Assembly (NCBI GenBank): GCA_944324495.1
Contig: CALUWN010000002.1
Span: 124,001-188,000 of the forward strand
Length of the DNA: 64,000 bases
Direction: 5' to 3'
Source of the DNA: an uncultured Mucispirillum sp.
GTDB taxonomy: Bacteria > Chrysiogenota > Deferribacteres > Deferribacterales > Mucispirillaceae
Shown here: positions 44,982-50,548 of the stretch, one piece after another
How positions within the stretch are numbered: position 1 is the stretch's first letter
How the letters are laid out: each line of letters begins with the position of its first letter
Translations under genes and position numbers: made by a program
Notes under the pieces: model-generated
Database searches by the model: none
What the model was told of the DNA's origin: nothing
The model's input: the letters and a program-made list of their open reading frames with translations, nothing else

Positions 44982-45007
44982 AAAGCCACTATATTATAAG
45001 TGGCTTT
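44982..45007. terminator. Bidirectional terminator between convergent genes
   Basis: A 9-bp stem AAAGCCACT / AGTGGCTTT with an 8-base loop. On the minus strand it is followed by TTTTT, so it best serves the porin-like gene. It begins right at the plus-strand stop. Confidence 0.7.
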
Positions 45008-45021
45008 ATATATAAAAATTA

Positions 45022-46263
45022 TTAAAAAATAACTCTAAATTGTATACCAGCCATTAATGCATTACTTTCTTCATATGTAGTATATTTAAATGACGGAAGT
45101 ATTGATTCTCCAATAATAACACTTCCATAATATGCAACTTGAGGTACAAGCATAAAATTATCACTTAAACTATACTGACCTTGCAAAAAGACAGCATAAG
45201 AAGAAAGGGTTGATGTTTCATTAGGAAGATATAAAGATGGAAAATCTGCCTGAGCACCAAGGCCAGCTACTACTGTAAATTTATCATTAATTTTTGCACC
45301 ATATTCAAAAGTTGTACCTATGCGGTGATTATTAAAAAAACTATTAGTTGGCAAATCAACATATGGTACAATTGCCACATTGTAAGAACGAGTACCATTA
45401 AATGAATATGTAAATGCTGTTTCGCCATACACATCTTCATTCATACCATATCTTGCTTGAAAAGAAAGCCACATACTTTTATCTTGAAAATACGATTTAA
45501 AGCCTATAACAATACCAAAAGCATGGAGATTAAGCCATTTTTTTGTTAAATCATTATTTATAAAACTACCATTATATGCAGTGTAGGTAGCAGCAAATTT
45601 AGCAAGGATAGTTTCATTTTCATACACATAGGATACTGCAGCTCTTGGAGTATATACATCAGCCAAGTTAAATGATAAAAAATACTCATTATCAATAAGT
45701 CTATCATCTTCTATTAAAGCTAAAGTAAGCCCTTTTATAGAATACTGGATTTGAAACCTTCTGTGGTAAACTGTACTGCCACCAGTTCCATAAAGCCCAG
45801 CATCATTATTAAATATATCAGAGGAAAAGCCTATCATAGATGTTGGAGTATCGGTTTTACCAAATAATAACCTGCCGCCATTTTTGAAATTCCAAGCACC
45901 CCATATATAGCGTAAACCAACAGATTCAGCAGCAGCTGGCCCGTTAAAAAAAGTAGGTTCATTTAAACCAAGCTCTATTTTACTTTCAAACTGGTTAATT
46001 TTAATATAAGTGCCAATATTTGATTTGTTTAAAGGGCTTAATATCATATCATGACTTAAGGTATAGTCAGTAGGAAAGCCAGTACTAGATACACCATTAA
46101 TTTTTTCATCTTTTTTACCTTGAAAGGTAAATGAATACTGAAGTACAACACGTAAATCAGCGTAAATATCTACTTTAGTATCACCATTACTATATATTTC
46201 AACAGCAAAAGCATTAATGTTAAGTATAAAAAATAAAAAAATTATTATTAAAAAATTTTTCAT
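45022..46263 (-). CDS. Outer-membrane beta-barrel (porin-like) protein
   Basis: 413 residues with a signal peptide ending AFA and repeated amphipathic beta strands ending in aromatic residues. The final strand, GIQFRVIF, ends in Phe as outer-membrane barrels do. RYIWGAWNFKNGGRLLFGKT resembles the plug/constriction side of trimeric porins. It is last in an operon with the membrane-anchored HEAT protein (9-bp gap) and a large lipoprotein. The solute is unknown. Confidence 0.8.
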   Translation of the reverse strand: MKNFLIIIFLFFILNINAFAVEIYSNGDTKVDIYADLRVVLQYSFTFQGKKDEKINGVSSTGFPTDYTLSHDMILSPLNKSNIGTYIKINQFESKIELGLNEPTFFNGPAAAESVGLRYIWGAWNFKNGGRLLFGKTDTPTSMIGFSSDIFNNDAGLYGTGGSTVYHRRFQIQYSIKGLTLALIEDDRLIDNEYFLSFNLADVYTPRAAVSYVYENETILAKFAATYTAYNGSFINNDLTKKWLNLHAFGIVIGFKSYFQDKSMWLSFQARYGMNEDVYGETAFTYSFNGTRSYNVAIVPYVDLPTNSFFNNHRIGTTFEYGAKINDKFTVVAGLGAQADFPSLYLPNETSTLSSYAVFLQGQYSLSDNFMLVPQVAYYGSVIIGESILPSFKYTTYEESNALMAGIQFRVIF

Positions 46264-46272
46264 AGTGTACCT

Positions 46273-48000
46273 TTATTTGCTTCCTAAAATATGTCTAATA
46301 TTAACTTTTTCTTGAGCAGAAATATTTGAAGATGTCATCAACTCTTGAAGAAATTTTTCTGCTTCAGGTTGTTTTGAATTTCTTTTTAAATAGTTTAACA
46401 TACTGTTTTGCACTACAGATGATTCTTGTTTAAAATTTTCTTTAACAATATTTGTCATTTGAGCTGTAGGGCGCATACTTTCTGTAAAAGCATCATAAAC
46501 TTTACTTCTAACACCAGCACTTGATTCATTACTTAAAAATGATTCTGCACCCTGTATAAATTCATTGAAGTTTGTGCTTGCTGCTGCAAATACTGCTGCT
46601 TCCCTGTTATATTCATTTGGGCTGGTAAGGTATGGGGTAACTTTATTATAAAAATATTCATCACTTGTATTACCTATTCCAAGCAGTGTATTATATGTAG
46701 TTTCATCACTGCCAGCAAGGGTTGTATCAAAGTAGTTACGTACATCCTCATATTTATCTGTTTTACCTAGCAGTTTTGAGCCAGCAGAACCTAATGCCAA
46801 AACAGAAGTATCTGCTATAAAATTATTTTCATCACTACTGCGTATAGATGAAAGCTGTATAAGGCTGTCTATAGTGTGGTCAGATGGGTTTGAAACACCA
46901 TTTAATGCAACTATTGCGCGAATTCTGTTAGCTGTAATTATCTCTTTATCTTTCATAATTATAGTGAGAGTATTTTGTGCATCAGCAGTACCAATTTTTT
47001 CAAGAATACCTATAAGCATTCTTGCAGCAACATCATTAGATTCGCCTATTTCTTTTATTTTCTTTGGGATTGATGCAAGTAACTGTGGGTTATTTTGTAA
47101 AAGTTTCAACATTGCAAAATAACTTTTATTACTATCATCATTCATAGCATTAAATTTTTCATTAAAATCAGCAAGTAAAGCAGCCATAGATTTATTATCT
47201 ATAGGGATATATTTTGCAATATAGTTTCTATTAGTATCAAACAAAGTTTTTTTATTTTCTTTATATTCTGCTAAAAGTTTGCTGTATGGTTTATTAAAAT
47301 ACTTCTCTAAATTATTATCAAAAGGAATTTGTACAAGTTTAATAGTATTGGTTACTTCAGAATTAGCAAGTCCAGATGCTTTAATGGTAACTATTTCATT
47401 ACTGGAAGCATTTTCAAGCCAAAAAGAATTAGAAAGAGTTAATGATATATCTGATAATTTAATATTTACATTAACATTATATTCTTCTATTAAATTTTTA
47501 ACTTTTTTTATATTTTTACCATTTTGCATATAATGGTATTTTATAAAGCCATTATTAGTATAGAGGATATCTTCCCATTCATTTATGCTGCTGTTATATA
47601 CAGGGCTTATGGTTTGAAAAATATATTGAAATAAACTATAAAGCGTTTTGTCATTTTCTATACCAGCAGGGTATTCAATATGTATAATACTACCGTTATT
47701 TGACATTTCAACAGGAATAATAATATTTTTTATACTACTGCCGCTTATATTATTTATTAGGAAATATATTATATTATTACCATTATATTCTTCAATATAT
47801 TTAGCATATGCAGTAATTTTGGTATGGTGTTTATCAGCAGCAATGTTTTTTATGTGAGAATTGACTATAATCTCATAACCTGAAGAGCCCCTTAATACTA
47901 AAGAGTGTTTACCTGTATTTTTTACTGCTATGATTAATGCAACTATGGCAGTAGCCACAGTTGCAAATATTATTATTTTTTTAAATGTAATATTTAACAT
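46273..48000 (-). CDS. Membrane-anchored beta-domain plus HEAT-repeat protein (lipid-transfer-like layout)
   Basis: 575 residues from the preferred ATG; an ATG 18 bp upstream would overlap the previous gene. One N-terminal membrane segment (about 7-26) anchors a periplasmic part. Residues about 30-220 are beta-rich, and residues about 250-575 are helical repeats (ALNGVSNPSDHTIDSLIQL, ADTSVLALGSAG, SAGVRSKVYDAFTES). Beta sheet then helical superhelix is the layout of vitellogenin/microsomal triglyceride-transfer N-domains, but I see no diagnostic residues. It is the middle gene of a lipoprotein-HEAT-barrel operon. Confidence 0.55.
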   Translation of the reverse strand: MLNITFKKIIIFATVATAIVALIIAVKNTGKHSLVLRGSSGYEIIVNSHIKNIAADKHHTKITAYAKYIEEYNGNNIIYFLINNISGSSIKNIIIPVEMSNNGSIIHIEYPAGIENDKTLYSLFQYIFQTISPVYNSSINEWEDILYTNNGFIKYHYMQNGKNIKKVKNLIEEYNVNVNIKLSDISLTLSNSFWLENASSNEIVTIKASGLANSEVTNTIKLVQIPFDNNLEKYFNKPYSKLLAEYKENKKTLFDTNRNYIAKYIPIDNKSMAALLADFNEKFNAMNDDSNKSYFAMLKLLQNNPQLLASIPKKIKEIGESNDVAARMLIGILEKIGTADAQNTLTIIMKDKEIITANRIRAIVALNGVSNPSDHTIDSLIQLSSIRSSDENNFIADTSVLALGSAGSKLLGKTDKYEDVRNYFDTTLAGSDETTYNTLLGIGNTSDEYFYNKVTPYLTSPNEYNREAAVFAAASTNFNEFIQGAESFLSNESSAGVRSKVYDAFTESMRPTAQMTNIVKENFKQESSVVQNSMLNYLKRNSKQPEAEKFLQELMTSSNISAQEKVNIRHILGSK

Positions 48001-48001
48001 T

Positions 48002-50398
48002 TTATGGTGTGTTTCCATTTATTTTTATCATATGGCTGTTATTAATTGGCTGTATTAAATTAATATTATTAGGCTGCTGCCCTGTTGAATCAAATAAAGT
48101 AGGGCCATATTTATCATCAATAATTTTAATCCATGCTATGATTTTAATATAGAAATTAATACTAAATCCAACCCATGCTTTACCTTTTAATAAAGAGTAG
48201 TAAAGTGGTGCATTAAAATTATATTTAAGATAAATATAATTATTTGTATCAACTGGTGAGTTACCTATACCTACAAAGCCATCTAAAGTTATAGGTGCTT
48301 TAATATCAAGAATTGGGTCTAGTTTTGCTTCTGCCCCAACGCCAACCCCAAATTTTGCAAGTTTCCAGTTTTTTGCAACTCCAAACCCGCCTTCACCATA
48401 TCCAGAAATATTAGCATAAGGTTCACCTTTAAACAGCATACTTAAACCTAAAGGTTGTTCTTTAATTGTTTGTGTAGTAGTAACAAGTGCTGGAATATTT
48501 TCTTTATAATCATTAATTGCACTATTAAACCTTATTCGTTTTTGATATTCTATTAAAAGTTTATTATAGTAGTCATGTACAATATTACCATTTTTTTCTA
48601 TGCCACTGCTATCTACAAAAGTTTTTGCCCATTGTGGCAGTTCATTATAATTATATTCATGGTTAAACCTGCCTATATTTGGAATAACATCAGCTTCTAA
48701 TGGTGTTTGTGTTGGTTTTTGAGTAGGGTTAGCAATAGTGGATACTTCAGTAATATTTACTGTATTATCAAATTCGCCTTTAGTATAAGCAATATCTATA
48801 CTAGGAACAAAACCGATAGCTCCTCTGCCACCTATTATATAGTAAAAAGGTACAACGTATGTTAGTGTTTGGCTTTGCTCAAAATCTTTTTCAAAAGTCA
48901 ATTTATCGTATGACATACTAAAGCTTGTAGGTGCACTTATTACTTTATTATTTAAAACTTTTTTACCTAAAACAGATAAATCCATTTCAAAAGATATACT
49001 ACCGTCATAATCGTTTGCAGTGGAGTTTGGTATACATACAGCTTCAACATAGCCATCATAAGCATTCATTTCACTGCCAAAAAGTGTAAGATACCCATAG
49101 CTTTCAACTCTGCTGCGCATTTGCTGCATTTTAGTATCGTTTTTTGTTACTTCTTCCACATAAAGCCCTGCTTTTATATTGCCCCTAATTTTAAACTGGT
49201 CATTACCGCTTGAAAAATCTTTAGGAGCTTCATATTTTAAAGGAGAAAACGCTTGTTCCTGTTGATTTGAACCAGCATTATCATGACCATTTAAATATTC
49301 TGATGTGAAAATACTTTCATAATAATCACGTATATCATATATTAAGCTGCCAAAATCAATGGTAACTGTTTTATTGGCACTTGTATATTCAATGCCATCT
49401 TTTTCGGCAATTACTGTAAAAGATACTGGTATTTCGTTTGTATATATAGGTGATGGAATTAAATGTGTTTTATTATCTGCTACTTTTTGCAGAAAAGGTT
49501 CTAAATCTTTAAAAGGAATATTTATTTTAATTGATGCTGTAACATCAGGCAGCACATTAGCATCTGTAGTAGAATGGTTTGCAAAATTAACACTGCTAAT
49601 AATATTATCATAGTTATCGGCTATATTTGTATTAATTTTAGTTGGCTCAAGGATAGTAGATTCTAAAGTATAGGAAATATTTCCTTTAACTTGACCATCA
49701 AGCCCCATAACTTGTGCAGAGCCTGTAGCAGAGCCAGAAAATGTACCAGCATATATTTTAATAGCATCAGCTGTTTCACCTTTAATCGTCATATCAATTT
49801 CTGCTGTTGCTGTAATAAACTCTGGTTTTTTAGCATCTTTTATGCTCCAAACTGATGAATTATCTATAACAGTAGATGAATGAAAACCATATTTTGGAGT
49901 AACTTCAGGGTCTGGCTTAACTATAGTTTCTTTATCTAGAAAATATATTTGTTCAAAATCACCTTCTACCATAAGGCTTACATATGTATCACCATAAATA
50001 TATTGGTTGCCTTCTAAGTCTTTAATAGCATCTAGTACATTAAACCTCAAATCCTTACTGGCTTCATTATAAAATGAATGTGTTACAGAAGTACACCCTT
50101 GGATTTGAAAACCCATTCTTTCATATTCTGGAGCTGTTATTTTTCCTACCCTGTCAACTACCATGCCTGTTGGGTTTTGTAAAAAACAAAGTGTAATAGA
50201 TATTGGGTATTCTTCAGGCTGGTATACTCTTAATGAAATATCTTTTATATATGTATTATTATCTTGGTTCCAAACTGAATTAGAAGCATTAACTGATAAT
50301 ATTTTTGGGGCAATATCATCATATACAGGCATAATCTGTTCATTAGCACAAGATAGTACAAACACTGATAATAATGAAAATAATATAATATTTTTCAT
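48002..50398 (-). CDS. Large lipoprotein of unknown function
   Basis: 798 residues, lipobox VLSC at Cys17, AGGAGGG before the ATG. The mature protein is almost entirely beta-rich with many Asn, Thr and Ser. An early region mentions paired Cys (residues about 71 and 101) and there are no recognised enzyme motifs. The C-terminal 120 residues (GVGVGAEAKLDPILDIKAPI and on, ending near KIIAWIKIIDDKYGP) are the most hydrophobic. The first gene of the three-gene envelope operon; it ends 1 bp before the HEAT gene start. Confidence 0.6.
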   Translation of the reverse strand: MKNIILFSLLSVFVLSCANEQIMPVYDDIAPKILSVNASNSVWNQDNNTYIKDISLRVYQPEEYPISITLCFLQNPTGMVVDRVGKITAPEYERMGFQIQGCTSVTHSFYNEASKDLRFNVLDAIKDLEGNQYIYGDTYVSLMVEGDFEQIYFLDKETIVKPDPEVTPKYGFHSSTVIDNSSVWSIKDAKKPEFITATAEIDMTIKGETADAIKIYAGTFSGSATGSAQVMGLDGQVKGNISYTLESTILEPTKINTNIADNYDNIISSVNFANHSTTDANVLPDVTASIKINIPFKDLEPFLQKVADNKTHLIPSPIYTNEIPVSFTVIAEKDGIEYTSANKTVTIDFGSLIYDIRDYYESIFTSEYLNGHDNAGSNQQEQAFSPLKYEAPKDFSSGNDQFKIRGNIKAGLYVEEVTKNDTKMQQMRSRVESYGYLTLFGSEMNAYDGYVEAVCIPNSTANDYDGSISFEMDLSVLGKKVLNNKVISAPTSFSMSYDKLTFEKDFEQSQTLTYVVPFYYIIGGRGAIGFVPSIDIAYTKGEFDNTVNITEVSTIANPTQKPTQTPLEADVIPNIGRFNHEYNYNELPQWAKTFVDSSGIEKNGNIVHDYYNKLLIEYQKRIRFNSAINDYKENIPALVTTTQTIKEQPLGLSMLFKGEPYANISGYGEGGFGVAKNWKLAKFGVGVGAEAKLDPILDIKAPITLDGFVGIGNSPVDTNNYIYLKYNFNAPLYYSLLKGKAWVGFSINFYIKIIAWIKIIDDKYGPTLFDSTGQQPNNINLIQPINNSHMIKINGNTP

Positions 50399-50447: not shown

Positions 50448-50519
50448 TCAGTACTTAAGAAAATTAGTTATAACTTAGTTGTAAAAGAATTTATTTTTGG
50501 CATATGACAAAAATAAATC

Positions 50520-50548
50520 TTGTAAAAACAACAAAAAAGTAGTATAAA
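50520..50548 (+). promoter_or_regulatory. Putative promoter of the DUF134-mrp operon
   Basis: TTGTAA (50520-50525) and TATAAA (50543-50548) with 17-bp spacing, 21 bp before the DUF134 start. Confidence 0.45.

Follow-up and report, generated by a model that had tools for sequence, protein, structure and literature searches.

An operon in an uncultured Mucispirillum species encoding a lipoprotein and a membrane-anchored protein with predicted similarity to large lipid-transfer proteins

The window, a 64,000-nucleotide stretch of the genome of an uncultured Mucispirillum sp., carries a compact operon of three envelope genes, referred to here as genes 1, 2 and 3 in the order of transcription (Table 1). 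If gene 2 were translated from the ATG at 48018, it would overlap gene 1 by 17 nt; the internal ATG at 48000, which leaves a gap of 1 nt behind gene 1, is the likely start because it agrees better with the N-termini of the related proteins. Genes 2 and 3 are spaced by 9 nt. The initial annotation had the genes packed within 1–9 bp behind a good promoter; with the start at 48000 this spacing holds, and the promoter is the best match of its region, where promoter-like sites are only slightly in excess (56, versus 44.8 with a standard deviation of 6.3 in shuffled sequences). The ATG of gene 1 is preceded by GGAGG, and a hairpin lies 3' of gene 3. A near-palindrome around GGCATATGACA (positions 50478–50529 of the window), also present in the sister species, is found upstream of a DUF134 gene and is perhaps the operator of the DUF134 regulator.

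Table 1. Genes, protein regions and candidate signals of the operon (positions in the window)
Feature	Positions	Strand	Basis and remarks
Gene 1, lipoprotein, 798 aa	48002–50398	minus	ORF; signal peptide ends VLSC
Gene 2, membrane-anchored LLTP-like protein (predicted), 581 aa	46273–48018	minus	ORF, Pfam Vitellogenin_N, model and fold search; likely start 48000
Gene 3, putative porin-like outer-membrane barrel, 413 aa	45022–46263	minus	ORF; paralogues in genus and family, weak porin matches; lineage-specific addition
Candidate promoter TTGACA-17-TATATT	50447–50419	minus	Best sigma-70-type match in region, 11/12
Candidate terminator hairpin between convergent genes	44982–45010		9-bp stem, -12.4 kcal/mol
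Partner-type beta region, conserved, at the C-terminus of gene 1	48005–49294	minus	Alignment; homologue model; Foldseek of homologue
Beta domain at the N-terminus of gene 2, predicted as an N-sheet-type barrel with one helix	47284–47898	minus	AlphaFold secondary structure, beta-only profile
HEAT superhelix of gene 2	46276–47200	minus	AlphaFold pLDDT mostly >85; HEAT_2 in 21/21 members scanned

Among the genomes sampled in the genus and the family, only that of the window has genes 1 and 2. In the sister species G001, G005 and G006 the flanking genes, with a flanking protein 78–80% identical to that of the window, adjoin each other without the operon, and this empty site indicates either a gain of the operon in the window species or its loss from the sister species. 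The G+C content is 30.2% in the operon and 31.9% in the window. Insertion as a mobile element was considered and rejected, as no direct repeats flank the junctions.

Homology of gene 2 extends across two groups of bacteria. The first, from the same order, adds three genomes to that of the window, one of them with three copies; the second is a Myxococcaceae group, in which 29 of the 79 genomes sampled around G078 match gene 2, and named carriers include Myxococcus xanthus (two copies, L106 and L118), Corallococcus, Archangium and Citreicoccus. A profile alignment of the two groups covers 531 columns (E 7.5e-22). Homologues are also present in two bins, one assigned to the Nannocystaceae and the other unplaced. 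Surveys of other phyla with the full profile were swamped by HEAT repeats, and a profile of the beta domain alone was used instead; over 290 genomes it matched only the window genome, the three same-order genomes, G078 and a remnant in G031, so that the module appears to be rare and patchy outside the Myxococcaceae. In G031 (L140:1501–2253, minus strand) the beta domain stands alone, its reading frame not continuing into a HEAT part, and this appears to be a decayed or separate version. Two records titled 'Comamonas sp. KCTC 72670' (L109 and L122) contain copies of the pair that are Myxococcus-like, and the record name is probably wrong.

The pairing of genes 1 and 2 is near-invariant. Among the 54 loci scanned (about 51 distinct), which span the two groups of bacteria and are related rather than independent counts, the partner adjoins the beta domain in all but L113, where the contig ends; in L076 the partner is divergent. 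In one subgroup of Myxococcus the pair is followed after 41–55 nt by the gene of an additional secreted protein, about 590 aa long (L118:7715–9487, with like sites in L115–L117, L119, L120 and L122), which has no Pfam match in L118.

The gene 3 protein carries a signal peptide and terminates in F, and 35 of 37 homologues end in F or W. Its family has several copies or paralogues across the genus and the family; tandem duplication is seen in G000 (C58) and in arrays in G012, G013 and G014. The family profile matches the porin 3hw9 weakly (E 0.017) and 3 of 14 members match OMP_b-brl; the gene 3 protein itself matches no Pfam family. In none of the relatives with the pair does a gene 3 homologue lie beside it. 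Gene 3 is a genus-wide porin-like paralogue, an accessory added in the window species and external to the module. The initial annotation suggested looking for the same three genes side by side in other genomes; linkage is borne out for genes 1 and 2, in a few same-order relatives and across the Myxococcaceae, and fails for the barrel. A three-gene unit was therefore rejected.

Close to the N-terminus of the gene 2 product lies a single hydrophobic helix with lysines in front of it, and the body of the protein should thus be periplasmic. Pfam Vitellogenin_N matches the protein at 26.9 bits (E 2.3e-6; curated cut-off, 24 bits), with residues 214–474 on profile positions 231–515, mainly in the helical part; HEAT_2 falls slightly under its own Pfam cut-off. 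In a genome search, Vitellogenin_N exceeded its cut-off in the window's genome and two relatives and in none of 14 control genomes, and 14 of 21 members of the gene 2 family match it (best E 8.6e-18). In the PDB the profile of these 21 members finds lipovitellin as a single collinear alignment of profile positions 42–499 with chain positions 2–480 (E 1.2e-12), and MTP at E 7.7e-7. Much of the lipovitellin signal comes from the HEAT repeats at the C-terminal end. A profile trimmed to the beta domain and the first helices did not return lipovitellin at E <=1, which weakens the sequence case for a large lipid-transfer protein (LLTP), and phmmer with the best Vitellogenin_N member returned only HEAT designs from the PDB. 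With the beta-only profile lipovitellin is at the top of 177,635 PDB sequences, in register, at E 0.078, and the isolated beta domain of the homologue L098 matches Vitellogenin_N positions 84–150 collinearly (E 0.0017). Taken alone, the beta domain has marginal sequence evidence.

In the AlphaFold model of gene 2, for which 15 homologues, mostly from Myxococcales, served as input and the closest, same-order ones were left out, about 11 strands and one helix (124–137) are followed directly by about 19 helices (278–578); the strands and helix of the N-domain come in N-sheet order. The mean pLDDT is 72.5 (about 45–80 in the beta part). When the model was compared with 350,542 PDB chains by Foldseek, ranks 1–7 were all LLTPs (MTP, lipovitellin and apoB; E 8.5e-12 to 2.5e-6, 612–670 alignment columns), ahead of the best HEAT-only chains, which are HEAT designs and start at E 1.8e-5. 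The TM-scores are low (0.28–0.39), so that the orientation of the domains is unreliable. The fold search suggested in the initial annotation thus comes out in its favour for gene 2: the model contains the beta-rich N-half and helical-repeat C-half described there, its N-domain is not made of bare HEAT repeats, and by computation gene 2 is predicted to have an LLTP-like fold. In LLTPs the superhelix is followed by amphipathic beta-sheets that line the lipid cavity. The gene 2 chain stops after the superhelix and has no C- and A-sheets.

A candidate for the missing part is encoded by gene 1, which from about residue 370 to its C-terminus shows homology to the partners in the other bacteria. Taken alone, gene 1 is too diverged to match the partner profiles more than weakly by hhalign. 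When an HMM was made from 24 partner C-termini, with that of the window excluded, it found gene 1 at E 2.5e-9 (33.5 bits), versus 4.7 bits for the best of 2000 shuffles, and hhalign scored 45.7 where 150 shuffles reach at most 21.1; this settled the homology. Between the partner families of the two groups, hhalign aligns about 184 columns at the C-terminal end (E 8.1e-10). The partner of the same-order relatives is a lipoprotein encoded directly upstream of the gene 2 homologue, in some cases with an N-terminal CARDB domain, and that of the Myxococcaceae is secreted and roughly 730–920 aa long. The fold evidence comes from a model of the M. xanthus homologue, built without the same-order sequences (pLDDT 66.5), in which residues 531–799 are beta, with strands 24–27 residues long. 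Foldseek places MTP and lipovitellin in its first four PDB ranks (E 7.1e-6 to 7.2e-4) and apoB in the fifth (E 0.048), at TM-scores of 0.14–0.19 and with a poor domain orientation; Foldseek does not give the matched part of MTP. This model, like that of gene 2, is of middling confidence. By sequence, the partner has no significant LLTP match in the PDB or Pfam. Vit_open_b-sht, the domain behind Vitellogenin_N in LLTPs, is matched weakly by two of 19 partners (best E 0.05), and one homologue has a weak YdbH-like match (E 0.01). In its modelled fold the partner family resembles LLTPs, and the C-terminal region of gene 1 would be the second half of the module, which goes beyond the initial annotation.

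These data lead us to propose, with a probability of about 0.58, that genes 1 and 2 encode an LLTP-like lipid-transfer unit split into two polypeptides, with gene 3 as an accessory. Gene 2 would be held in the inner membrane by its one helix, with a periplasmic part made of an LLTP-type N-sheet barrel and the helical superhelix, and the lipid cavity would be lined by long amphipathic beta-sheets from the C-terminal region of gene 1. Both products would come together in the periplasm and form this cavity between the membranes; at the inner membrane the pair would pick up a hydrophobic cargo, either phospholipid or neutral lipid, which it would then offer in the direction of the outer membrane, and the porin-like gene 3 product would be an accessory recruited in the window species. 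The assembly, the cavity, the lipid cargo and its direction are inferred. The initial annotation offered transfer of lipid or other hydrophobic cargo as one reading of all three genes; the LLTP-like fold predicted for genes 1 and 2 favours it, transfer as such is part of the same inference, and gene 3 drops out. The annotation also saw no recognised function in any of the products, which can now be amended for gene 2, above the Vitellogenin_N cut-off, and for gene 3, a member of a porin-like family.

The main rival accepts descent from the LLTP-like fold and gives it another use: in the periplasm the pair would help outer-membrane or secreted proteins, as their scaffold or chaperone, and would hold no lipid cargo. 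HEAT superhelices commonly bind proteins, CARDB, found at the N-terminus of some relatives' partners, is an adhesion-type module, and lipid-metabolism genes were not found adjoining the pair in the loci read. We nevertheless consider this explanation unlikely, if a serious one, given that both genes show LLTP-like features, including the sheet region known to hold lipid, and that the partner strands reach 24–27 residues.

The LLTP likeness might instead be convergence, with gene 2 a HEAT-repeat protein joined to an unrelated beta domain and the model helped by AlphaFold's memory of LLTPs. Such an origin would fit the marginal sequence evidence for the beta domain taken alone, as well as the strong but unspecific matches of the HEAT repeats. 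It is made rather improbable by the collinear L098 match, by the in-register first rank of lipovitellin for the beta-only profile, by the Foldseek order, in which LLTPs stand well above HEAT-only chains, and by the partner, which points to LLTPs independently. Least probable by far is a three-part bridge in which the barrel is essential: the tight packing behind one promoter suggests it, whereas the barrel belongs to a multi-copy family of the genus and is unlinked to the pair elsewhere, so that such a bridge is not a conserved unit.

If the split lipid-transfer unit is real, a two-part, membrane-anchored bacterial LLTP would be a possible ancestor or parallel of the animal LLTPs, which carry yolk, LDL and chylomicron lipid and whose origin before animals is, to our knowledge, unsettled. 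We suggest tentatively, and with some doubt, that bacteria hold a true two-gene branch of the vitellogenin/apoB/MTP superfamily and that the single-chain animal proteins derive from, or share an ancestor with, the split module. The pair would also be a small system for studying the lipid loading of LLTP cavities and would add a new candidate to the routes by which lipid may cross the bacterial envelope; M. xanthus, with its two copies, is genetically tractable. A literature search, which mostly did not extend to subscription journals, found no paper on bacterial LLTPs; bacterial Vitellogenin_N matches may already stand unremarked in the databases.

Among known systems, general porins (Porin_2, DcaP, the P. 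aeruginosa porin 3hw9) resemble gene 3 in size, signal peptide, terminal aromatic residue and weak family matches, although the gene 3 protein itself, unlike them, has no family match. HEAT-repeat proteins and designed alphaRep proteins resemble the C-terminal half of gene 2 and have neither the beta domain nor the partner gene. The AsmA-like proteins YhdP, TamB and YdbH and the Mla and Lpt systems are comparable in the proposed job and place of the pair, with an inner-membrane helix and a periplasmic beta-rich body; the pair had no significant profile match to bacterial intermembrane lipid transporters, and we know of no HEAT superhelix or Vitellogenin_N in those families. The closest known system is that of the LLTPs (lipovitellin/vitellogenin 1lsh, the MTP large subunit 6i7s/8eoj and apoB-100 9bd1/9ea7). 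Gene 2 differs from them in ending after the superhelix and in having no cysteine in its 581 aa, so that the conserved disulfides of the N-terminal barrel are absent, and Pfam found no von Willebrand D domain in the pair. The pair is, moreover, bacterial, split into two genes with the sheet-bearing gene upstream, and anchored in membranes by a helix (gene 2) and a lipid (gene 1). For gene 2 the prediction is LLTP-like, with a beta barrel and a helix at the N-terminus ahead of a helical superhelix, and the pair further resembles LLTPs in the Vitellogenin_N match and in a partner whose predicted fold is also closest to MTP and lipovitellin.
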